DNA of 32,269 nucleotides from Acidobacteriota bacterium. Lineage in GTDB: Bacteria; Acidobacteriota; Holophagae; Holophagales; Holophagaceae. Below, in pieces: positions 9,430 to 20,039 of this stretch (its first letter is position 1; every line of letters begins with the position of its first letter). The position numbers and the translations under genes were made by a program. The stretch spans positions 1 to 32,269 of the forward strand of contig BJFQ01000014.1 of the NCBI GenBank assembly GCA_014189895.1. Direction: 5' to 3'. Below the pieces are notes generated by a model, which saw only the letters and a program-made list of their open reading frames with translations, was not told where the DNA came from and ran no database searches.

Positions 9430-9843
9430 TTAGTCCCTAAGTTTAAGAAGAGTCTTGATCTCTTTAACCGCCCTTTGAAACAGGTGGGGGCTTGCAATAG
9501 CAATCATCACAGTATCTTCCCCTGCTACGGTTCCGGCAATCAGATCTTTAGAGATCTGCTGATCTACCACATAGGCGAGTGCAGCAGCAAATCCTGCAGA
9601 CGTGCGAAGAATGAGGAGATTGGGGGGAGCAGTGATAATGGAAGCAGAGGGAAGACTCTCTCCAGATTGGTTAACAACCCGATATGCTCCCTGTTGTTTT
9701 TCTATGGATAAAGCTTTCAGGCGTCTTGATAAAGTCGATTGTGTTAAGTGAATCCCGCGTGCAGCCAAAAGTCTCTCGAGCTGGCTCTGACTGGTCACAT
9801 CTTGACCTGAAATAACACTGAGAATCTTCTGGTCTGGCGTCAT
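9430..9843 (-). CDS. argR: arginine repressor ArgR
   Basis: Hexameric arginine-responsive DNA-binding repressor. With the ATG at 9843 it has 137 residues, aligning at its N-terminus with B. subtilis AhrC. An upstream in-frame TTG (9876) would add 11 residues without a better ribosome-binding site. The N-terminal winged helix contains TSQSQLERLLAARGIHLTQSTLSRRLKAL, with the recognition helix TQSTLSRRL. The C-terminal oligomerisation/arginine domain contains GTVAGEDTVMIA, matching the GTIAGDDT / GTICGDDT motif whose Asp residues bind arginine. It is divergent from the argD operon across a 100-base region carrying ARG-box-like repeats, so autoregulation is likely. Confidence 0.93.
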   Translation of the reverse strand: MTPDQKILSVISGQDVTSQSQLERLLAARGIHLTQSTLSRRLKALSIEKQQGAYRVVNQSGESLPSASIITAPPNLLILRTSAGFAAALAYVVDQQISKDLIAGTVAGEDTVMIAIASPHLFQRAVKEIKTLLKLRD

Positions 9844-9886
9844 GTGAAGGGCCCAAAAAAGATCTTGGATTAACAAGATGGTTTGC

Positions 9887-9900
9887 GTATACTTGTATAC
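9887..9900. repeat. GTATAC palindrome pair in the argR-argD control region
   Basis: GTATAC occurs twice, separated by TT (9887-9892 and 9895-9900); each copy is itself palindromic. It sits directly beside the ARG-box array and contains TATACT elements on the plus strand that could serve as a -10 hexamer. Whether it is promoter or operator cannot be told from sequence. Confidence 0.45.
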
Positions 9901-9937
9901 TATTCAAAATTATGCAATATTATGCATTTTTATGCAA
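9901..9937. promoter_or_regulatory. tandem ARG-box-like operator between argR and argD
   Basis: TATGCA occurs at 9911, 9921 and 9931, preceded by a degenerate copy TATTCA at 9901, so four half-sites are spaced exactly 10 bases (one helical turn) apart. The last pair forms TGCAT-TTTT-ATGCA (9923-9936), the geometry of the classical ARG box TGAAT-N4-ATTCA with C in place of A; TGCAA-TATT-ATGCA (9913-9926) overlaps it. ArgR hexamers bind tandem ARG boxes and several species use TGCAT-type half-sites. The array ends 7 bases before the argD start, so bound ArgR would cover the promoter or start region. Its assignment to ArgR is inference from position and shape. Confidence 0.7.
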
Positions 9938-9943
9938 GGGCCT

Positions 9944-11074
9944 ATGATACCTTCTTTATTTCCCACCTACCCCCCCTACCCCCTTGTCATGGTGAGAGGT
10001 GAGGGTGACACGATTTTTGATGATCAAGGCCAACCTTGGATCGATCTTTACGGAGGCCACTGTGTTTGTTCAACAGGCCACAGTCATCCCAAGGTTGTAG
10101 AAGCCATCCATAATCAGTCGAAGCAATTAATTTTTTACTCGACCGCGGGTGAACTCACGATACGTCGAGAAGCTTCGAATAGCCTCATAGCATTTTCAGG
10201 AATGGATACTGTCTTTTTTTGTAACTCAGGTGCTGAGGCCAACGAAAATGCGCTTAAACTTTCGTTCCAAATCACGGGACGAAAAGCCTTTGGAAGTTTT
10301 CAGGGAGGTTGGCATGGACGAACCTTTTTGGCCCTGGCAGTCACTGATGATCCCAAAATTACTGAGGCTTTTGAGTCTATTTTCCCCGAACATCATCAAT
10401 TTCCTTTTGGGGATGTTCAGGCACTAGAGTCTATTGATTTTTCAAATTTAGCCTGTGTGATTGTAGAACCTATCCAGAGTATGTCGGGCATTCGTACGGC
10501 ACCTTCTGAATGGTTTTCAGCGTTACGCGCAAAGTGTACGAAAGCTGGTTGTTTCTTAATCTTTGATGAAATACAAACGGGTGTAGGGCGTATGGGTCAA
10601 CCTTTTGCAAGTCACTATTTCAAGGTTCGACCGGATTTCATCACAAGCGCAAAAGGGCTTGCGTCCGGCGTGCCCATTGGAGCCCTCATGATGACAGAAG
10701 TAGTAGCTCAGCATGTCAAATCCCATATGCTTGGAAGTACTTTTGGGGGAGGTCCCATCGCTTGCGCTGCTCTAATCGCAACCTTAGACATCATTCAGAA
10801 TGAACACCTTATGGAGCATGCAACTCAAATGCATTCGTATTTAGCGAGCGCACTGAAAAACACTATGATCGATGAGGTTAAAGGCGCCGGTCTACTTTTG
10901 GGCCTCAAATCACACAAAGCTTCCGATCTCAAAGCGTATCTGTTATCTCAAAGAGTTCTTGTCGGAGGTTCTTCGGATCCAACTGTACTGCGTCTTATGC
11001 CACCTCTTAACGTCCGAAAAAGCTCATTGGAATCTCTCGTAGAACATATCCGAGCCTTTGGGGGTAAGTCATGA
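9944..11074 (+). CDS. argD: acylornithine aminotransferase (ArgD)
   Basis: PLP-dependent class III aminotransferase that makes N-acylornithine from N-acylglutamate semialdehyde and glutamate. The start MIPSLFPTYPPYPL follows AAGGG (9936-9940); further-upstream in-frame starts would place coding sequence inside the operator repeats. The 376 residues contain NSGAEANENALKL (94-106), GGWHGRT, IVEPIQ, the pyridine-nitrogen Asp in FDEIQTGVGR (D208) and the Schiff-base lysine in FITSAKGLASGVPIGA (K237). Since argF' downstream looks like the succinylornithine type, the acyl group handled here may be succinyl; ArgD enzymes accept both. It is the first gene of the operon and overlaps argF' by 4 bases. 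Confidence 0.93.
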   Translation: MIPSLFPTYPPYPLVMVRGEGDTIFDDQGQPWIDLYGGHCVCSTGHSHPKVVEAIHNQSKQLIFYSTAGELTIRREASNSLIAFSGMDTVFFCNSGAEANENALKLSFQITGRKAFGSFQGGWHGRTFLALAVTDDPKITEAFESIFPEHHQFPFGDVQALESIDFSNLACVIVEPIQSMSGIRTAPSEWFSALRAKCTKAGCFLIFDEIQTGVGRMGQPFASHYFKVRPDFITSAKGLASGVPIGALMMTEVVAQHVKSHMLGSTFGGGPIACAALIATLDIIQNEHLMEHATQMHSYLASALKNTMIDEVKGAGLLLGLKSHKASDLKAYLLSQRVLVGGSSDPTVLRLMPPLNVRKSSLESLVEHIRAFGGKS

Positions 11075-12054
11075 GACATTTCACGCACCTGAAAGACCTT
11101 ACACCAGAAGAGATCCAATCCGTGCTTAATCAAGCCAAGGTTTGGAAGGTGTATGCACCTGATGATATTTTTTTAAATAAGATTTTAGCGATGGTCTTTT
11201 TTAATCCTTCGTTGCGCACTCGCTTAAGTTTTGAGGCAGCAATGTTGCGTCATGGGGGTCATGCAATTGCACTCGAGGTTGGATCAGGCTCTTGGAATCT
11301 AGAAACTGAATCAGGGGCGACCATGAACGGTAACAAACCCGAACATGTTCGGGAAGCCGTCCCGGTGATAAGTCGATTAGCGGATATGATCGGAGTTCGA
11401 TCGTTCTCCTCGGGGGTATCCACTGACGAGGATGATCACGATTCTGTCATTCACGCTTTCAAGTCACTCAGCGGTGTCCCTGTCATCAGCATGGAAAGTG
11501 CTCGCGAACATCCTTGTCAGGGATTAGCGGACATGCTGACGATACAAGAGCACCTTGGAGTACCTAGACCTAGAGTCACTCTGGCTTGGGCTCCTCATAT
11601 CAAACCACTCCCCAAAGCGGTCCCCAATTCTTTTCTTCTTTCTTCTGCAGCGATGGGCTATGACATAACCGTAGCGCATCCCCAGGGTTACGAATTGGCA
11701 TCTTCAGTAATTCAAGAAGCGCAGCGCATGTCTCAGCAGACCGGAGGCCGTATTAACTTTAGTCATGATCTTGAGTCAGCCGTTAAAGACACACAGGTTA
11801 TATATGCCAAGGCTTGGGGGCCTTCATCTCCATTGGCACCTCCGCCGGATTCACTCACATCTTGGATGACTCACGAACGACATCTAAAATTAGCTGATCC
11901 CAAAGCGATTTTTATCCACTGCCTGCCGGTGAGAAGAAATGTGGAGGTTCATGACTCCATTTTAGATAGTCCTCAGTGCAAGGTTATTGATGAGGCCGAG
12001 AACCGATTCCATATACAACGTGCTCTGATTCATTTTCTTTTATCCCATTCTTAA
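11071..12054 (+). CDS. argF': N-acylornithine carbamoyltransferase, predicted N-succinylornithine type (ArgF')
   Basis: Transfers the carbamoyl group to the delta-amino of an N-acylated ornithine, giving N-acylcitrulline. The 327 residues carry the carbamoyl-phosphate motif FFNPSLRTR (43-51), HPCQ (147-150) and HCLPVRRN (283-290). They match the acylornithine branch rather than ordinary OTCase: WNLETESGATMNGNKPEHV, WAPHIKPLPKAVPNS and DEAENR. In the published Xanthomonas (acetyl) and Bacteroides fragilis (succinyl) enzymes, Glu92 versus Pro90 sets substrate choice. Here the residue is Pro90 in KPEH, and after HCLPVRRN the carboxylated lysine of the Xanthomonas enzyme is replaced (NVEV). I therefore predict the succinyl substrate. 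The gene overlaps argD by 4 bases; argB starts 11 bases after the stop. Confidence 0.88.
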   Translation: MRHFTHLKDLTPEEIQSVLNQAKVWKVYAPDDIFLNKILAMVFFNPSLRTRLSFEAAMLRHGGHAIALEVGSGSWNLETESGATMNGNKPEHVREAVPVISRLADMIGVRSFSSGVSTDEDDHDSVIHAFKSLSGVPVISMESAREHPCQGLADMLTIQEHLGVPRPRVTLAWAPHIKPLPKAVPNSFLLSSAAMGYDITVAHPQGYELASSVIQEAQRMSQQTGGRINFSHDLESAVKDTQVIYAKAWGPSSPLAPPPDSLTSWMTHERHLKLADPKAIFIHCLPVRRNVEVHDSILDSPQCKVIDEAENRFHIQRALIHFLLSHS

Positions 12055-12065
12055 AGGCTATATTC

Positions 12066-12980
12066 ATGTTTGAAAAAAACCCTTACCAATTATTAAAGTT
12101 CTCGGCAGCTTACGGACGTCAGTTTCGTCATAAGATTTTTGTCATCAAACTAAGCGGTGACACTTTAACAGACCCCAAAACGCGACGGGCGCTATGTGAA
12201 CAGATTGCATTGCTTTGGAGTTTTTCTATCCGTATCATCCTTGTCCATGGAGGTGGAATTGAGTTGGATCAAGAATGTCAGCGCCGCAATATCCCTATCC
12301 ATAAAGTTGCCGGTCGTCGTATTACGAGCGCAGAAGTCCTCCAAACAGCTTTTAAGGTCTTCACGGAACAGGTACAGCCCTTAGTATTGGGAGATCTCAA
12401 ATCATTGGGCGTCACAGCCGTGGGACTCACCGGATTAGATGCACAGATGATCGAGGCGCATCAACGACCACCCATCTCAATCAAAGCCGACGGTGATGCC
12501 GAGGAAAAAATGGTTGATTTTGGATGGGTCGGAGATATCGTTCGGGTGAATCCAGAAATTCTTTTCGATCTTTTAGACCAAGACAAAATTCCCGTCATCG
12601 CTCCGATTACAGGTAATCGCCACGGCGACATGTTCAATACCAATGCGGATACCATCGCATCCGAAATTGCTTGTGCCGTCCAAGCGGAGAAACTCTTCTT
12701 TCTTCTCTCTGTCCCCGGCTTACTTCGAGACGTGCACAGTCGCTCTTCTTTGATTTCTCAAATTGCTTTCCACGAATTAGATGCACTCGAGGCAGAGGGT
12801 GTTATCTCTGGAGGGATGCGCCCCAAGATGCAAGCAATCAAACGCGCTCTAGGCTCAGGCGTCAAGGCAGCTCACTTAGTTTCAGGAATACTACCTGATG
12901 CCTTATTAATCGAGGTTTTCACTAATGAAGGAAGCGGAACGATGATGCTAGCTCCGACCAAACAAGGAGTTTCATCATGA
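12066..12980 (+). CDS. argB: N-acylglutamate kinase (ArgB)
   Basis: Amino-acid-kinase-family enzyme that phosphorylates the gamma-carboxylate of N-acetyl- or N-succinylglutamate. The 304 residues contain the phosphate-binding lysine in FVIKLSG (K28), HGGG (61-64), the acylglutamate-binding GRRIT (83-87), FNTNADTIASE, and GGMRPKM with the ATP lysine. GRRIT and NTNADT resemble Bacteroidetes ArgB, consistent with a succinyl pathway. The extra N-terminal helix (YQLLKFSAAYGRQFRHK) recalls that of arginine-feedback-inhibited ArgB enzymes, so allosteric inhibition is plausible but unproven. It overlaps the argE-like gene by 4 bases. Confidence 0.93.
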   Translation: MFEKNPYQLLKFSAAYGRQFRHKIFVIKLSGDTLTDPKTRRALCEQIALLWSFSIRIILVHGGGIELDQECQRRNIPIHKVAGRRITSAEVLQTAFKVFTEQVQPLVLGDLKSLGVTAVGLTGLDAQMIEAHQRPPISIKADGDAEEKMVDFGWVGDIVRVNPEILFDLLDQDKIPVIAPITGNRHGDMFNTNADTIASEIACAVQAEKLFFLLSVPGLLRDVHSRSSLISQIAFHELDALEAEGVISGGMRPKMQAIKRALGSGVKAAHLVSGILPDALLIEVFTNEGSGTMMLAPTKQGVSS

Positions 12981-14053
12981 ATCTCCATCCTGAGATTTCC
13001 GCTGCTGAATTCCTGAAGGCGATTGTTGCGATCCGCAGTATTTCGGGAGAAGAGAAAATCCTGGCTGACGTTTTGGAATCCTTTTTAAAAGAACAAGGTT
13101 TCATCCCACAGCGCGTAGGTAATAATATTTGGTTTACTTTGGGATCCGACTCGGGACCCACACTCTTGCTCAATTCGCATATCGATACGGTTCCCCCAAA
13201 CGCAAGTTGGGTTTCAGACCCCTTCAAGCCGGAGTGGAAAGAATCTCGATTAACAGGGCTGGGGGCCAACGATGCCAAAGGCGCCGTTACGGCCATTATC
13301 TTTGCGGCTTTGCGTCTCAAGAAAGAAGGTTTTGAAGCAGGGAGAGTTTTAGTTGCCTTATCATGCGAGGAAGAAATAGGGGGGCAAGGACTGGGAACGA
13401 TCTTGTCCCAGCTGGGTCCTTTGGATGCAGCTATCGTTGGTGAACCCACCGGCCTTCGTGTCGTATCCTCGCAGCGTGGGCTCTTGATTCTCAAATGCAC
13501 AGCGCGAGGTATTAGTGGGCATGTCGCTAATGCTCAAATGCTAGGTACTGAAAATGCAATTACCAAAGCGTCTAGAGATATTTTGAAACTCGAGCATTTA
13601 GACCTCCCTTCACACCCTGTCTTAGGGGCTATGAAAGCGCATGTGACCCAAATTCAAGGTGGACTGAAGCGTAACCAAATTCCAGATCACTGTGAATTCT
13701 ATATAGATATTAGAACAAACCCAGGATCCGACCATACAGCACTCACACAATTAATCCAAAGTCACCTTGAAAGTGAAGTTATGGTTCATTCTGATCGATA
13801 TTTTCCCAAATGGACTGATCCGCAGCACCCTATCGTAGGGGCTGCCTTGAAGGCGGCCAAAAAAGAGGCTCCCACCAGCTCAGCTACGACTTCAGATTGG
13901 GCTTTTTTAAAGAATATTCCTGCCGTCAAGGTGGGGCCGGGCGATACCTTTAGAAGCCATCGACCTGATGAATACCTTTTGTTGAGCGAACTCGAAGAAG
14001 GGATCCGTTTCTATCAGGACAGTACGATTCATTTCTTTCAGCAGGCACCCTGA
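12977..14053 (+). CDS. argE: M20-family N-acyl amino acid deacylase (ArgE/DapE-like), probable acylcitrulline deacylase
   Basis: Metallo-amidohydrolase of 358 residues. Metal and catalytic residues are visible: H68-I-D70, D99 in GANDAKGA, E131/E132 in SCEEEIGGQG, E156 in GEPTG and H328 near the C-terminus (FRSHRPDEY). GISGHVANA belongs to the dimerisation domain. Sequence alone does not separate ArgE, DapE and relatives. Its place between argB and argH, after an acylornithine carbamoyltransferase, argues that it removes the acyl group from N-acyl-(probably succinyl-)citrulline to release citrulline for ArgG. It overlaps argB by 4 bases and argH by 1. Confidence 0.85.
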   Translation: MNLHPEISAAEFLKAIVAIRSISGEEKILADVLESFLKEQGFIPQRVGNNIWFTLGSDSGPTLLLNSHIDTVPPNASWVSDPFKPEWKESRLTGLGANDAKGAVTAIIFAALRLKKEGFEAGRVLVALSCEEEIGGQGLGTILSQLGPLDAAIVGEPTGLRVVSSQRGLLILKCTARGISGHVANAQMLGTENAITKASRDILKLEHLDLPSHPVLGAMKAHVTQIQGGLKRNQIPDHCEFYIDIRTNPGSDHTALTQLIQSHLESEVMVHSDRYFPKWTDPQHPIVGAALKAAKKEAPTSSATTSDWAFLKNIPAVKVGPGDTFRSHRPDEYLLLSELEEGIRFYQDSTIHFFQQAP

Positions 14054-15408
14054 TGACATTCCAGCCCTTGTGGTCCAAGAAGGGCCTTCTGACCAGCGAA
14101 AAGATATCAAATTTCACCGTTGGAGAAGATCCGCTGACCGATCCCAATTTTTTATCGTTTGATTGCTGGGGGACGATTGCGCATGTTCGGCAACTTCATC
14201 ACCTTGGATATCTAACCGAACAAGAATTAAATGCTATTTTGAAATCCCTAGAGGAGATCCTCAAACAATCAGCTATACATATCCCCGATCTTAAAGGCTA
14301 TGAAGATGGGCATTCCTACCTTGAGCACCAATTGACAGAGAGACTAGGAGAAGCGGGCAAAAAGATACATTTGGGACGATCGCGTAATGATCAGATTTTA
14401 TTGGCTGAACGATTATGGATGCGTTACGAACTTCTCGAACTTCATCAAGATATTCTGGTGTTATGCCAGCAATTATCCTCCATGTCAGGTAGATATACAT
14501 CTACGCTTATGCCGGGTTATACCCATCAAAGAAAGGCGATGCCAACTACCTTTGGTTTTTGGGTAGCTTCATACGCAGAAAGTTTCACAGAACTGCTGTC
14601 CGCCGGGAAAGATCTTTACCGCCAACTCAATCGTTCGCCGCTGGGAGCAGCGGCAGGTTTTGGAAGTCCAATCCCCCTCCATCGCTCTTTGGTAGCAGAG
14701 TTATTGGGTTTCGATGAGGTACAACGGAATGCCTTGAATGTTATGTCGAGCCGCGGTCGTTGCCAACTAGATTTTTTACATTGGATCAACCAGATTACAA
14801 ATGTTTTTGAAAAACTCTTTATTGATTTGTCAGTTTTCTCCCAAGAAGAATATCAATTTGTTTCACTTCCGGATTCTTTCACGACGGGCAGCAGTATCAT
14901 GCCGCAAAAAAGGAATCCGGATGTTTTAGAATTAGCTCGGGGGCGCTGCCGAGAGATTCGAGGTCTACGAACAACCCTAGAGAATATTTCGACCGGTCTT
15001 CCATCGAGCTATCATCGCGACAGTCAGTTGCAGAAGTTTTATTTGGTTCGTTCCTATCAGTTGACGCAAGGAATTGCCCAGCTCGCTCCTGAGCTCATGA
15101 ATAATCTAAAAATTCATGAAGCTCGAATGAAAAGTGCTTGCACCTCGGAGCTTTTTGCAACACATGAGGCCTACCAATTAGTTCAAAAAGGTTTGCCATT
15201 CAGGGAAGCCTATCGGCGTATTGGTGAGCAGATTCTCGACGGGAACTTCAAGGCGCAACCCGCCGAATCGTACCTCCAGCATCTTCATAAGGACTTTAGT
15301 CAAGAAGGTCTTCTGCGCGATCAACAGTTGGACGTCTTGCATGCCTGGGCCGACGACACTCGGCTACATCTCGAAACTCTCTTCACCAAACTATTGGAGC
15401 GCGTATGA
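14053..15408 (+). CDS. argH: argininosuccinate lyase
   Basis: Last step of arginine synthesis: splits argininosuccinate into arginine and fumarate. The 451 residues of this fumarase/aspartase-superfamily enzyme contain HLGRSRNDQ, GYTHQRKAMP (usually GYTHLQ-AQP), SPLGAAAGFGSPI, and the signature loop GSSIMPQKRNPD (about 279-290) with the catalytic serine. Changes in the less critical positions of the GYTH segment fit a divergent, Bacteroidetes-like ArgH. The start codon shares one base with the argE-like stop, and argG begins inside the ATGA at its end. Confidence 0.95.
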   Translation: MTFQPLWSKKGLLTSEKISNFTVGEDPLTDPNFLSFDCWGTIAHVRQLHHLGYLTEQELNAILKSLEEILKQSAIHIPDLKGYEDGHSYLEHQLTERLGEAGKKIHLGRSRNDQILLAERLWMRYELLELHQDILVLCQQLSSMSGRYTSTLMPGYTHQRKAMPTTFGFWVASYAESFTELLSAGKDLYRQLNRSPLGAAAGFGSPIPLHRSLVAELLGFDEVQRNALNVMSSRGRCQLDFLHWINQITNVFEKLFIDLSVFSQEEYQFVSLPDSFTTGSSIMPQKRNPDVLELARGRCREIRGLRTTLENISTGLPSSYHRDSQLQKFYLVRSYQLTQGIAQLAPELMNNLKIHEARMKSACTSELFATHEAYQLVQKGLPFREAYRRIGEQILDGNFKAQPAESYLQHLHKDFSQEGLLRDQQLDVLHAWADDTRLHLETLFTKLLERV

Positions 15409-16616
15409 GTTCACCTAAAGTACTGTTGGCATTCTCAGGTGGATTAGACACCACTTTTTGCTTAGTGTATCTCAAGGAGCAAGGTTATGAAGTTCATACC
15501 GCAACGGTGGACACTGGAGGATTCTCTTCTGAAGAAATTAAGCGCATCCAAGATTTGTCTCATTCTCTGGGTGCCAGTTCTCACACGCTAATCAACGGAA
15601 AACAAGACCTTTTCGAGCATTACTTAAAGTTTCTTATTTACGGCAATGTGCTTCGTGGCCAAGTCTATCCACTCTCTGTTTCTGCTGAACGTGTATGTCA
15701 AGCTCGCTGTCTCATCACCCTTGCTAAAAAACTTGAAGTGGGGGCTCTCGCCCATGGATCAACAGGATCGGGTAACGATCAAGTTCGGTTTGATGTAGCA
15801 TTCAGGACCCTGTATCCAGAAGCAAAAATTCTGACTCCCATTAGAGATCTTTCCCTCACTCGGGAAGAGGAAGTCTCCTACTTAGCTGAACGCAAGATCC
15901 ATGTTCCAACTAAGACAGGGTTTTATTCAATCAATGAGGGTATGTGGGGAACCAGTATCGGAGGGAAAGAAACGTTGTCGTCATGGGATTTTCTTCCCGA
16001 AAGCGCTTTTCCCAAGGGTTCTATTTCAAGACAACAAGCCACGCAGGAACTTCATCTTACTTTTGAAAAAGGGATACCCACTCGAGTCAATGACCAAGCC
16101 ATGGATCCCGTTGATTTGATAGAAACTTTAAATGTTCTAGGATCTTCTTTGGGACTAGGTCGTGGGACACATCTGGGAGAAACAATTTTAGGGATAAAGG
16201 GTCGTATCAGTTTTGAAGCACCGGCAGCTCATCTTCTTATCGCGGCACATCGTGAACTTGAAAAACTCGTCCTGAGTGGAAAACAACTTTTCTGGAAGGA
16301 GACTTTGGGGAATCTCTATGGCTCCTTACTCCATGAGGGACATTTTTTAGACCCTCTCAGCCGCGATCTGGAGGCCTTTTTAAGTCATAGCCAAGAACGG
16401 GTCAGCGGTGAAGTTCGATTGAGAATTGAGCCGCTAACTTTTATGGTTTTAGGTTGTCAGTCGCCCTTTTCACTTATGAACTCTAAGCTTGCAAAATATG
16501 GCGAAAGCAACGCTCTTTGGTCGAACATAGATGCTTTAGGATTTACCAAGATCTTTGGGATTTCTCAACAACTACACCATCATGCAGACCCCAAAAATAA
16601 ACAGGGGTCTGCATGA
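15405..16616 (+). CDS. argG: argininosuccinate synthase
   Basis: ATP-dependent condensation of citrulline with aspartate to argininosuccinate. The 403 residues start with the PP-loop FSGGLDTTFC (10-19) of N-type ATP pyrophosphatases. HGSTGSGNDQVRFD in the middle is the citrulline/aspartate-binding stretch, and GMWGTSIGGKE resembles the usual NLWGRSIEGG-type segment. It is of the somewhat shortened, divergent form seen in Bacteroidetes-like arginine clusters. It overlaps argH and the following P-loop gene by 4 bases each. Confidence 0.93.
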   Translation: MSSPKVLLAFSGGLDTTFCLVYLKEQGYEVHTATVDTGGFSSEEIKRIQDLSHSLGASSHTLINGKQDLFEHYLKFLIYGNVLRGQVYPLSVSAERVCQARCLITLAKKLEVGALAHGSTGSGNDQVRFDVAFRTLYPEAKILTPIRDLSLTREEEVSYLAERKIHVPTKTGFYSINEGMWGTSIGGKETLSSWDFLPESAFPKGSISRQQATQELHLTFEKGIPTRVNDQAMDPVDLIETLNVLGSSLGLGRGTHLGETILGIKGRISFEAPAAHLLIAAHRELEKLVLSGKQLFWKETLGNLYGSLLHEGHFLDPLSRDLEAFLSHSQERVSGEVRLRIEPLTFMVLGCQSPFSLMNSKLAKYGESNALWSNIDALGFTKIFGISQQLHHHADPKNKQGSA

Positions 16617-17665
16617 GAATTCACGTCGATAAGATTGGCTCAGTCACGCGCAATTTGCAGCTTGGTCGCTCCCTCACTCTTTCGGATCAGTTCTTAGTAG
16701 AGCCTGGTTCTGTCGTAGCCTGTCGAGTTCATGGAGAGAAATCAACCTACAATCAACTCGAAGATCCTTATGGTCGGCTCATAACCCTTCATCAAAGCGA
16801 TCTCGTTGTGGGCGCTTTGGGCCATCGCAACGCACTCCATGGATATGAAGGTGTGATGCCAACCCAGCTGAAGGTGGGTGACACCCTACATATGTTGAAT
16901 ATGGGGGGCGTGATGGGGCTCTGCCAATCACACAACCCGGATGTGGGGGCACCTTTCCGGCTCGAAGTACTGGGGCAAGTGATGCTATTTCCTGAATTTC
17001 AATCTCGCATAGGCCAACCGGCGCACATTTCGATGGGTGCGCTCCAGCGGCGGGATTCATCCGTGCATTGTCCCGTGGTTTATATCGCAGGAACCTGTAT
17101 GAATGCCGGAAAGACCGCAGCTTGCTGTGCCATTATTAAAAATTTTTCTCAACGAGGCCTCAAAATAGGGGGTGTTAAACTCACGGGAGTTTCTCTGCAG
17201 CGAGATATTTTGAGCATGCGCGACTACGGGGCATCTGAGATTTTAGATTTTACCGATGCCGGCATTGTGTGCACTTCAAAAGAAACGGCGGCTTCAACCG
17301 CTAAGACCTTATTAACAGCGATGTCCGAGATGGAAGTCGATCTCATCGTAGCCGAAACGGGTGATGGCATTTTGGGAGAATACGGTGTTCAATCTATCCT
17401 GAGCGATCCTGATCTTAATCAATTAAGTACGGCCTTTATTCTTTGCGCTAATGATCCCGTGGGAGCCTTGGGGGGCGTGGAAACGCTACAAAAGCAATTT
17501 GGTATTAAGGTCAATATCATAGCGGGTCCCGTAACGGATAATCGGGTTGGAGAGCGATTCATAGAGTCCCTAGGGCTACCGGCTCGCAATGCGCGGAGCA
17601 ATCCTAAAGCGCTCGGCGATCTTACCTTTGATATTTGTTATCCCACCGCTAGGGTGGCTTCATGA
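16613..17665 (+). CDS. BioD/DUF1611-like P-loop protein of unknown function inside the arginine operon
   Basis: Family not recognised with certainty. The 350 residues fall into two parts. Residues 1-150 look beta-rich, with VVGALGHRNALHGYEGVMP, DTLHMLNMGGVMGLC and LEVLGQVM. Residues 154-345 form a P-loop domain with GTCMNAGKT (160-168), the same G-T-x5-GKT spacing as dethiobiotin synthetase (GTDTEVGKT) and close to the GTDCSVGK of DUF1611 proteins. RGLKIGGVKLTG, a Walker-B-like DLIVAETGDG (243-252) and AFILCAND follow as in those folds. DUF1611 includes DgcN, a glutamate N-acetyltransferase. As the operon lacks a glutamate acylating enzyme, this protein may supply it. Alternatives are an ATP-dependent ligase or a regulator. 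It overlaps argG and argC by 4 bases each, tying it to arginine synthesis. Confidence 0.8.
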   Translation: MRIHVDKIGSVTRNLQLGRSLTLSDQFLVEPGSVVACRVHGEKSTYNQLEDPYGRLITLHQSDLVVGALGHRNALHGYEGVMPTQLKVGDTLHMLNMGGVMGLCQSHNPDVGAPFRLEVLGQVMLFPEFQSRIGQPAHISMGALQRRDSSVHCPVVYIAGTCMNAGKTAACCAIIKNFSQRGLKIGGVKLTGVSLQRDILSMRDYGASEILDFTDAGIVCTSKETAASTAKTLLTAMSEMEVDLIVAETGDGILGEYGVQSILSDPDLNQLSTAFILCANDPVGALGGVETLQKQFGIKVNIIAGPVTDNRVGERFIESLGLPARNARSNPKALGDLTFDICYPTARVAS

Positions 17666-18651
17666 AAGCCATCATTCTTGGGGCTTCGGGTTACGGTGGG
17701 GGTGAACTCTTTCGTTGGCTCACTCAACACCCCAGCATTGAATCTACCGAAGGTACGTCCCGTGCCAATGCGGGAAAACTAGTATCATCGGTTCATCCAA
17801 ACCTCTTAGGGCTTGTCGATCAAGTGTTTTCAGAAGAGATTGATTGGACTCAATACGTTCATGAAAAAGAATTAGTGATCTTTGCAAGCATGCCTCATGG
17901 AGAATTCAAAAATCAGTACCCTACCTTGGAAGATGAGTGGAAAAGACTAGGGTTATCTGAGCGTATTTTTTTAATCGATTTATCACATGACTTCAGGATT
18001 GATCCGAGTTTCACGTATGGGCTTTCAGAAATTAATGCGGGACACATTAAAGGTTCTCGTCGTATTTCAAATCCTGGCTGCTTTGCTACCGCTCTCCAAT
18101 TAGGGATGCTGCCGCTAGCACCTTATCGCCCTGAACATATTTTCGTGAGCGCTGTGACGGGATCCAGTGGCTCTGGATCTTCAGTAAGTTCCACAACACA
18201 CCACCCCACGCGATCGAACGATTTTAGGGCTTACAAAATGCTTTCACATCAACACGAAGAAGAAGTTCTCCACAGTTGTGCTGAAAAAGGTTGGAGGCCT
18301 ACTTTGTCATTTGTCCCCCAATCCTCTTCATTGGTGCGAGGCATTTTTGCTACCATCCAGCTCACTCAAAACAAATCCATGAGAGGCTTGGACCTCCCAG
18401 GGATCTTTAAGGATTTTTATAGGGATAAATTCTTCATACGATGGACGGAAGGAACGCCCCGTATTCTCAGCACTGTGGGGTCTAATTTTGCGGACCTCCA
18501 CGTCATCACCCAAAACGATAAGGTACTGATTATGGTGGCTCTTGATAATCTAGGGAAAGGCATGGCTTCCCAAGCTATTCAGAACATGAATCTTGCCTTG
18601 GGGTTACCCGAGTGGACGGGTCTTCGCCAAGCTGGGCCCTACCCTCTTTAA
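17662..18651 (+). CDS. argC: N-acyl-gamma-glutamyl-phosphate reductase (ArgC)
   Basis: NADPH-dependent reductase that turns N-acylglutamyl-5-phosphate into the semialdehyde. The 329 residues begin with the Rossmann motif ILGASGYGGGE (5-15). NPGCFATA holds the catalytic Cys140, and SHQHEEE (195-201) holds the catalytic-base histidine. VTGSSGSGSSVSSTTHHP and FVPQSSSLVRGIFAT also fit the family. It is the last gene of the tightly overlapping arginine run, 4 bases into the P-loop gene; the next gene begins 20 bases later. Confidence 0.95.
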   Translation: MKAIILGASGYGGGELFRWLTQHPSIESTEGTSRANAGKLVSSVHPNLLGLVDQVFSEEIDWTQYVHEKELVIFASMPHGEFKNQYPTLEDEWKRLGLSERIFLIDLSHDFRIDPSFTYGLSEINAGHIKGSRRISNPGCFATALQLGMLPLAPYRPEHIFVSAVTGSSGSGSSVSSTTHHPTRSNDFRAYKMLSHQHEEEVLHSCAEKGWRPTLSFVPQSSSLVRGIFATIQLTQNKSMRGLDLPGIFKDFYRDKFFIRWTEGTPRILSTVGSNFADLHVITQNDKVLIMVALDNLGKGMASQAIQNMNLALGLPEWTGLRQAGPYPL

Positions 18652-18671: not shown

Positions 18672-20039
18672 ATGGACGCACAGTTATTAACGCGACAAGC
18701 TCTTAAGGCTTTTGCAGAATCTCAAAGAACTACTTTTGAAAAAGAGCTGAAGACCTTGGTAGAAATCCCTAGCATTAGTGCAGACCCCACAAAAGCTCAA
18801 GATATTCAGCGATGCGCTAAGGCCGCCAAGAGCCTATTTGAGCGCTATGGAGGCCATGCTGAAATCTTAGATACCCCTGGAAATCCTCTAATCCATGGAT
18901 GGTTCAGTCAAGACTTTGATAAAACCATAACGGTATATAACCATATGGACGTGCAACCTGCGAATGAGCCTGAATGGACCGCCGAGCCCTTTGAATTTAC
19001 GATCCAAGGAGATACCTACCGGGGTCGAGGAAGTACGGATGATAAAGGCCCCGCTTTGAGTGCTTTTTTTGGAGCCGTCGCAGCCCATCAAGCCGGTGTT
19101 CCCATTAATATGCATTTCTTATGGGAGCTTGAAGAAGAAATTGGTTCACCTAATTTTGAAGAAGGCCTGAAGAAGCACAAGGATAAATTAAGAACTGACG
19201 CCATCGTGGTGAGTGATACCGTTTGGATTACCCGAGGTAAGCCCAGCACGCCTGCTGGTTTGCGTGGTCTGAAAGGATTTCGTCTGACCCTAGAAACAGC
19301 TGATCATGACCTTCACAGTGGAGTAGTGGGAGGGGCAGCTCGTAACCCTCTGAGTGAACTAATCACCCTAGTAGGGCAAATGGTCGATGGAAACACGGGG
19401 CGCATTTTGATCCCAGATTTTTATGATGAGGTTATACCTCCCTCCGCTGAGGAATTAGAAGGATGGCGAGTGAGTGGGTTTACGACTGAAACATTTATGA
19501 AAGACCATCAGCTCAAAGGTGTTCGAACCCAAGATCCAGTTGAAATTCTGACTCGTGTTTGGGGAATGCCCACCATGGAAGTACATGGAGTAGTTGGAGG
19601 CTATACGGGTCCTGGCATCAAGAGCGCCGTGGCTCCTAGAGCAGAAATCAAACTCTCCTGCCGCCTGGTCCCAGCCATGAACGAAGCCTCCACTATGGCC
19701 AGAATTAAATCTTTTGTAAAATCGAAAAATCCTGACGTTATCATCCACGAGGAACACGGACTAGCGCCCTTCAAAGGACACGTCACAGGTCCTTACGCAC
19801 AAGCGATTCGCGAAGCTTATCAATTTGCTTTTGGGGAGACCTGTGTCTTTACGCGAGAGGGTGGAAGTATTGGCGCCGTAAAAACCATGGAAGATATTCT
19901 CGGCTCAGAAGTCTATTTTCTCGGACTCTCTTTGCCCAGCCACGGCTACCATGCCCCCAATGAAAATTATGATTGGGAGCAAGCGGGCGGAGGTATGGCT
20001 GCCTTTGCGCACTACTTCGAAACCGTTTCTAAAATGTAG
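18672..20039 (+). CDS. M20-family dipeptidase/carboxypeptidase (CNDP-like)
   Basis: 455-residue zinc peptidase of the carnosine-dipeptidase-like branch of M20. The start MDAQLLTRQALKAF follows GGAGA (18663-18667) by 4 bases; an upstream in-frame start would overlap argC. Metal and catalytic residues: H91-M-D93, D124 in GSTDDKGP, E154/E155 in WELEEEIGS, D182 in VVSDT, and a C-terminal His in SLPSHGYHAPNE. TADHDLHSGVVGGAARNP marks the dimerisation lid. Its place 20 bases after argC suggests read-through from the arginine operon. Amino acid salvage from peptides is likely; a role in deacylating succinylated intermediates is possible, but this subfamily usually cleaves dipeptides. Confidence 0.85.
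   Translation: MDAQLLTRQALKAFAESQRTTFEKELKTLVEIPSISADPTKAQDIQRCAKAAKSLFERYGGHAEILDTPGNPLIHGWFSQDFDKTITVYNHMDVQPANEPEWTAEPFEFTIQGDTYRGRGSTDDKGPALSAFFGAVAAHQAGVPINMHFLWELEEEIGSPNFEEGLKKHKDKLRTDAIVVSDTVWITRGKPSTPAGLRGLKGFRLTLETADHDLHSGVVGGAARNPLSELITLVGQMVDGNTGRILIPDFYDEVIPPSAEELEGWRVSGFTTETFMKDHQLKGVRTQDPVEILTRVWGMPTMEVHGVVGGYTGPGIKSAVAPRAEIKLSCRLVPAMNEASTMARIKSFVKSKNPDVIIHEEHGLAPFKGHVTGPYAQAIREAYQFAFGETCVFTREGGSIGAVKTMEDILGSEVYFLGLSLPSHGYHAPNENYDWEQAGGGMAAFAHYFETVSKM

Follow-up and report, generated by a model that had tools for sequence, protein, structure and literature searches.

A conserved P-loop protein of the arginine operon in Acidobacteriota, mutually exclusive with ArgJ, as a candidate N-acyl-L-glutamate synthase

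The window, a stretch of 32,269 nt from an acidobacterial genome of 1.17 Mb (97.1 % complete) most closely related, among named organisms, to Holophagaceae and Geothrix, was annotated with Pfam and NCBIfam models. These identified an arginine operon with the order argD-argF'-argB-argE-argH-argG-X-argC and a divergent argR (Table 1), where X denotes a gene of 350 codons. An earlier note, made from the letters alone, had stated that the operon holds every later arginine step but no argA, argJ or GNAT gene, and the models agree. CarB is also present, as are all other arginine steps, which rules out carbamoyl-phosphate supply as the missing step and leaves glutamate acylation as the sole step unaccounted for. 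X overlaps both argG and argC by 4 bp (ATGA), so the coordinates confirm the length and the two overlaps previously described. It is not a chance ORF: Holophagaceae and the phylum at large conserve it together with its neighbours, and dN/dS between near relatives is approximately 0.04, indicative of strong purifying selection. Directly downstream of argC lies an M20 dipeptidase-like gene, which is kept in L002–L005, L007 and L008 (74–95 % identity) and is absent from that place in L078 and L079, which are more distant members of Holophagaceae.

Table 1. Genes and motifs of the arginine locus, in window coordinates
Feature	Position	Strand	Remarks
argR, arginine repressor	9430..9876	-	Both ArgR Pfam domains above cut-off; TIGR01529 6e-21, below cut-off
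argD, acyl-ornithine aminotransferase	9878..11074	+	TIGR00707 8e-101, below cut-off
argF', N-acyl-ornithine carbamoyltransferase	11071..12054	+	NF003384 above cut-off; Pro at acyl-specificity position
argB, N-acylglutamate kinase	12066..12980	+	TIGR00761 above cut-off; without fused GNAT domain (TIGR01890 match at positions 5-278 of 429 only)
argE/dapE-like M20 deacylase	12977..14053	+	Pfam, NCBIfam
argH, argininosuccinate lyase	14053..15408	+	TIGR00838 above cut-off
argG, argininosuccinate synthase	15405..16616	+	TIGR00032 above cut-off
X	16613..17665	+	350 aa, P-loop (SIMIBI-type) protein; basis: conserved arg-operon gene, mutually exclusive with ArgJ
X, Walker A / P-loop GTCMNAGKT, residues 160-168	17090..17116	+	K167 and T168 invariant in both clades
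X, DLIVAETGDG, residues 243-252, Walker-B-like	17339..17368	+	E248 invariant in both clades
argC, N-acyl-gamma-glutamyl-phosphate reductase	17662..18651	+	TIGR01850 above cut-off
M20 dipeptidase-like gene	18672..20039		Directly downstream of argC

An AlphaFold2 model of X, of low confidence (mean pLDDT 62), comprised an all-beta N-terminal part and a C-terminal SIMIBI-type P-loop domain, the latter resembling HypB and BioD when this low-confidence model was searched with Foldseek. The beta-rich N-terminal part reported earlier was thereby seen within the limits of that model, and both motifs were located in the sequence (Table 1). At the level of curated families, no Pfam or NCBIfam model was reached at its cut-off, and no GNAT model matched X. 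Scores were 24.8 bits for MobB PF03205 (cut-off 26.6; E 2e-5), 23.9 bits for MobB TIGR00176 (cut-off 76.2), 12.1 bits for BioD TIGR00347 (cut-off 83.3) and 16.6 bits for DUF1611_C (PF07755; cut-off 25), this last match covering only 38 residues at the P-loop. Among 34 members of the arg-linked clade defined below, 29 touched DUF1611_C (best 4e-4) and 26 touched MobB. Profile–profile comparison of this clade gave probabilities of 77 % for DUF1611 (an hhalign figure), 74 % for MobB and 69 % for BioD, with the BioD alignment spanning only the P-loop and the strand to about K189; the non-arg clade reached 96 % against DUF1611 with hhalign. A PDB sequence search with the protein (P0001) found no relative, a PDB search with profile A2 returned weak P-loop matches only, and scans of viral collections yielded no relatives.

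Architecture also separates X from these families. True DUF1611 proteins of the same phylum (L092, L089) possess a DUF1611_N Rossmann domain and a full DUF1611_C, whereas X lacks DUF1611_N (PF17396), carries the beta-rich part instead and has the conserved motif ETGDG in contrast to EGQGS; what the two have in common is a distantly related P-loop domain and a similar length. BioD and MobB share with X the SIMIBI P-loop fold, as judged from the low-confidence model, and the P-loop spacing, but X has an extra N-terminal domain and its remaining sequence is not confidently alignable to theirs. Membership of DUF1611, MobB or BioD is thus ruled out by curated cut-offs and architecture, and we place X in the SIMIBI P-loop superfamily as a family without a name, outside DUF1611. 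The likeness to DUF1611 noted earlier holds at the P-loop region only and does not exceed the likeness to MobB or BioD, and the special closeness to DUF1611 and DgcN was not borne out. DgcN, a DUF1611 protein that reportedly has N-acetyltransferase activity, sets a precedent in that a P-loop protein there acts on glutamate at its amino group. It has the key role in a pathway that racemises D-glutamate (PMC12363236).

When 396 Acidobacteriota genomes were searched with a profile, 117 gave a match to X, weak and fragmentary matches included. Arg-clade X was present in 101 genomes (approximately one quarter), a count based on neighbourhood for loci that were read and on score for the rest. We read 40 representative loci, all outside the closest genomes, and found X adjoining argC within an arg cluster in 30, that is, in all 30 arg-clade loci. 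The other ten (L051, L062, L066–L073) have X away from arg genes and form a second group with approximately 25–32 % identity to the window protein, to which L009, from an alphaproteobacterium, also belongs. The arg-linked members comprise one clade (support 90/91), and their neighbourhood is conserved down to approximately 33 % identity, as argG-X-argC in the window family and typically as argR-(argG)-X-argC-argD-argF'-argB in distant families. The neighbourhood conservation on which the earlier proposal had been made to depend is therefore present. Both the arg and the non-arg clade invariantly carry the P-loop residues K167 and T168 as well as K189, D198, F213, E248 and R72, and D281 is nearly invariant; Y46, L75, G77, N96, C162, Y257 and N326 are specific to the arg clade and are candidates for substrate recognition.

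Presence of X was then compared with that of ArgJ, to which it has no sequence similarity but with which it would share a pathway slot, the supply of N-acylglutamate. ArgJ (PF01960) was found in 144 of the 396 genomes, without overlap with arg-clade X. Restricting the comparison to the 265 genomes with argC (TIGR01850), 99 carried arg-clade X, 139 carried ArgJ, none carried both and 27 carried neither (Fisher p = 4e-48, a value that ignores relatedness of the genomes). No family contained both genes when family codes were compared by eye, and part of the mutual exclusion reflects clade structure. That ArgJ excludes X directs attention to acylation itself, because ArgJ supplies N-acetylglutamate. 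Simple lineage inheritance, whereby X sits in the arg clusters of families that happen to be without ArgJ and replaces nothing functionally, would be compatible with a presence that follows families, none of them with both genes, and with a single arg-linked clade. We nevertheless regard it as the least probable of the explanations considered, and barely credible, given that X has been kept beside argC despite changed gene order and extensive divergence, that purifying selection on it is strong, and that the X genomes tested are otherwise without an identified source of acylglutamate.

We read 16 of the 27 clusters with neither gene. A LysX-type ATP-grasp gene is present in seven of these (four confirmed by TIGR02144), indicating LysW-type clusters in which acylglutamate is not needed. 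The remaining nine (L105–L112, L117; eight of family f22 plus G131) are acyl-type arg operons with the order argR-argC-argD-argF'-argB and without X, ArgJ or a recognised glutamate acylase; X was absent between argR and argC in these clusters, and a broader profile agreed. Altogether, about ten argC-positive genomes (nine f22 and G131, with nine clusters read) are of this acyl type without X and ArgJ, which implies either another source of acylglutamate there or that X is dispensable. No convincing synthase was found among the GNATs of X-less f22 genomes that might replace X; on visual inspection, the GNAT groups restricted to these genomes resembled aminoglycoside acetyltransferases or toxins (TacT), or were generic.

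Known routes through the start of arginine synthesis use GNAT-type enzymes or ArgJ, or by-pass this step through LysW. X has neither a GNAT domain nor sequence similarity to ArgA, S-NAGS, ArgO or NAGS-K, with which it would share the proposed reaction and pathway place. We searched for these alternatives in genomes carrying X. ArgA or NAGS-K fusions were absent from 35 X genomes, in which the ArgA model TIGR01890 matched the kinase part only (at most positions 2–290 of 429); in the window genome it matched ArgB only. The short NAGS model PRK07757 had no match above cut-off among 23 genomes, of which 14 carry X, and ArgJ was absent from the window genome and from every arg-clade X genome among the 396. 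The search for argA, argJ and GNAT-type synthases proposed beforehand thus ended with none passing a curated model in the X genomes tested.

These results bear on a second explanation, that X is a regulator or accessory of the arginine pathway (e.g. one that senses nucleotide or arginine and partners with ArgC, ArgG or ArgB) and that a GNAT elsewhere acylates glutamate. P-loop proteins are frequently regulators, some f22 arg operons manage without X, and the window genome encodes four GNATs by PF00583, one of which, L011, has a weak likeness to PRK07922 (1e-6, far below cut-off). None of the four approaches the cut-off of an N-acetylglutamate synthase model, however, and clear orthologs of L011, L010 and L013 were lacking from the X genomes G123 and G316; G123, a near-complete genome of family f32, also has four GNATs, and those common to the X genomes compared are RimI-type only. 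L011 is not near arg genes and was ruled out as a hidden synthase for want of a clear ortholog in G316 and G123. Moreover, exclusion by ArgJ (none of the 238 argC-positive genomes with either gene has both) would not be expected of a regulator, and an ArgR is already there. We therefore consider a regulatory role unlikely.

A 2024 paper points both ways. Holophagaceae other than Acidiparvus were reported to lack N-acetylglutamate synthase, whilst Acidiparvus (UBA12189), a freshwater genus described as the sole ultra-small lineage of Acidobacteriota, was counted with a complete arginine pathway under a lenient HMM rule (PMC11561045). Judging from its size and family, the window genome likely belongs to Acidiparvus. 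A pathway counted as complete indicates that the authors accepted some gene as the synthase, which counts against X.

A third explanation is that X is an ATP-dependent ligase acting on another intermediate, or making the acyl donor, with a further protein serving as acylglutamate synthase. Five residues that resemble those of the BioD Mg-ATP site (K167, T168, K189, D198, E248) are invariant in both clades, and relatives adjoin ATP-grasp ligases. All other intermediates have enzymes in the operon, however, CarB is present, and the ArgJ exclusion again singles out acylation itself; this explanation appears very unlikely.

Information on the acyl group came from the carbamoyltransferase. The window argF' scored above cut-off with the model for N-acetylornithine carbamoyltransferase, yet has Pro at the position of Glu92 (X. 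campestris numbering); its best PDB match, 3l04, likewise has Pro where wild-type-like entries have Glu. Across X clusters this position is occupied by P, A, S, V, T or I and never by the acetyl-type E. S, P, A or V at this position confers a succinyl preference (PMC7311316), whereas T and I fall outside the published rule and a succinyl reading there is an extrapolation. Judged by this residue, the window carbamoyltransferase is of succinyl type, which firms up the earlier suggestion of 'perhaps N-succinyl' glutamate. The succinyl-type residue was also considered as a marker of X but is not unique to X clusters; the X-less f22 clusters likewise have T, so the residue informs on the acyl group and not on X. 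A succinylated arginine pathway is also found in Bacteroidetes, where a BT3761-type enzyme is the probable N-succinylglutamate synthase (PMC7311316); that enzyme is a GNAT, in contrast to the P-loop protein described here.

Taken together, genome context suggests that X is probably an N-acyl-L-glutamate synthase, most plausibly N-succinyl-forming, that performs the committed first step of arginine synthesis. The earlier note had cast this protein as the missing N-acylglutamate-forming enzyme; the proposal gains from the ArgJ exclusion, the lack of a known synthase in the X genomes tested and the conserved arg context, whereas its structural analogy to DgcN holds only in part. We propose that the fold of X would be new for glutamate N-acylation and unrelated to GNAT (ArgA-type) and ArgJ synthases. 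Under this model, X would attach a protecting acyl group (succinyl being the likeliest) to the amino nitrogen of L-glutamate and so provide the substrate of ArgB; the group would then be carried through ArgB, ArgC, ArgD and the acyl-ornithine carbamoyltransferase before removal by the M20 deacylase. The P-loop (K167, T168), together with K189, D198 and E248, may hold the nucleotide part of the donor and activate the acyl group, these residues being reminiscent of the nucleotide and Mg ligands of BioD. The beta domain, R72 and Y46, L75, N96, Y257 and N326 may bind glutamate and the acyl carboxylate. As for the donor, we lean towards succinyl-CoA; succinate plus ATP via succinyl-phosphate, as in an ATP-dependent ligase, is a possibility of somewhat under even chance.

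According to a 2015 review, no enzyme had by then been identified for the succinylation of glutamate (PMC4490483). If X is a P-loop synthase, this gap would be closed in a major phylum of soil bacteria for approximately 100 of the 396 genomes sampled, false predictions of auxotrophy would be corrected, and amino-acid N-acylation would gain a new enzyme fold. A broader proposal, to which we give even odds, is that X represents an unrecognised class of glutamate N-acyltransferase or N-acyl-ligase, with a SIMIBI P-loop fold and a new beta domain, that starts arginine synthesis via N-succinylated intermediates in more than one third of the argC-bearing Acidobacteriota sampled, and that it is part of a wider family of amino-acid N-acylating P-loop proteins paired with M20/AstE-type deacylases.

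The genomic surroundings of the non-arg relatives touch on this last point. An M20 hydrolase gene overlaps the relative in L071, and that in L069 lies beside an AstE/AspA-like protein; that hydrolases of acyl amino acids recur beside the relatives agrees with a general amino-group acylation role for the family, though it is suggestive only. The L062 relative lies beside a YheCD ATP-grasp protein. Relatives beside an ABC exporter were found in L009, L066, L069, L073 and on Rhodobacterales plasmids. The relative followed by an exporter of approximately 500–615 aa forms a conserved pair (L100, L102, L104, L009, L066, L069, L073), accompanied in some cases by an alpha/beta hydrolase. NCBI names some of the relatives in these pairs DUF1611; in the one tested (L100), DUF1611_C was below cut-off. 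Lastly, a distant relative annotated as 'hypothetical protein' was present on the Priestia megaterium plasmid NZ_CP085446.1 (L101:2730-11418) in a phosphonate-type cluster that may direct the synthesis of a phosphonate peptide antibiotic and also encodes PEP mutase, a TPP enzyme of two subunits, a pair of ATP-grasp ligases, an OTC-like carbamoyltransferase and an M20 hydrolase.
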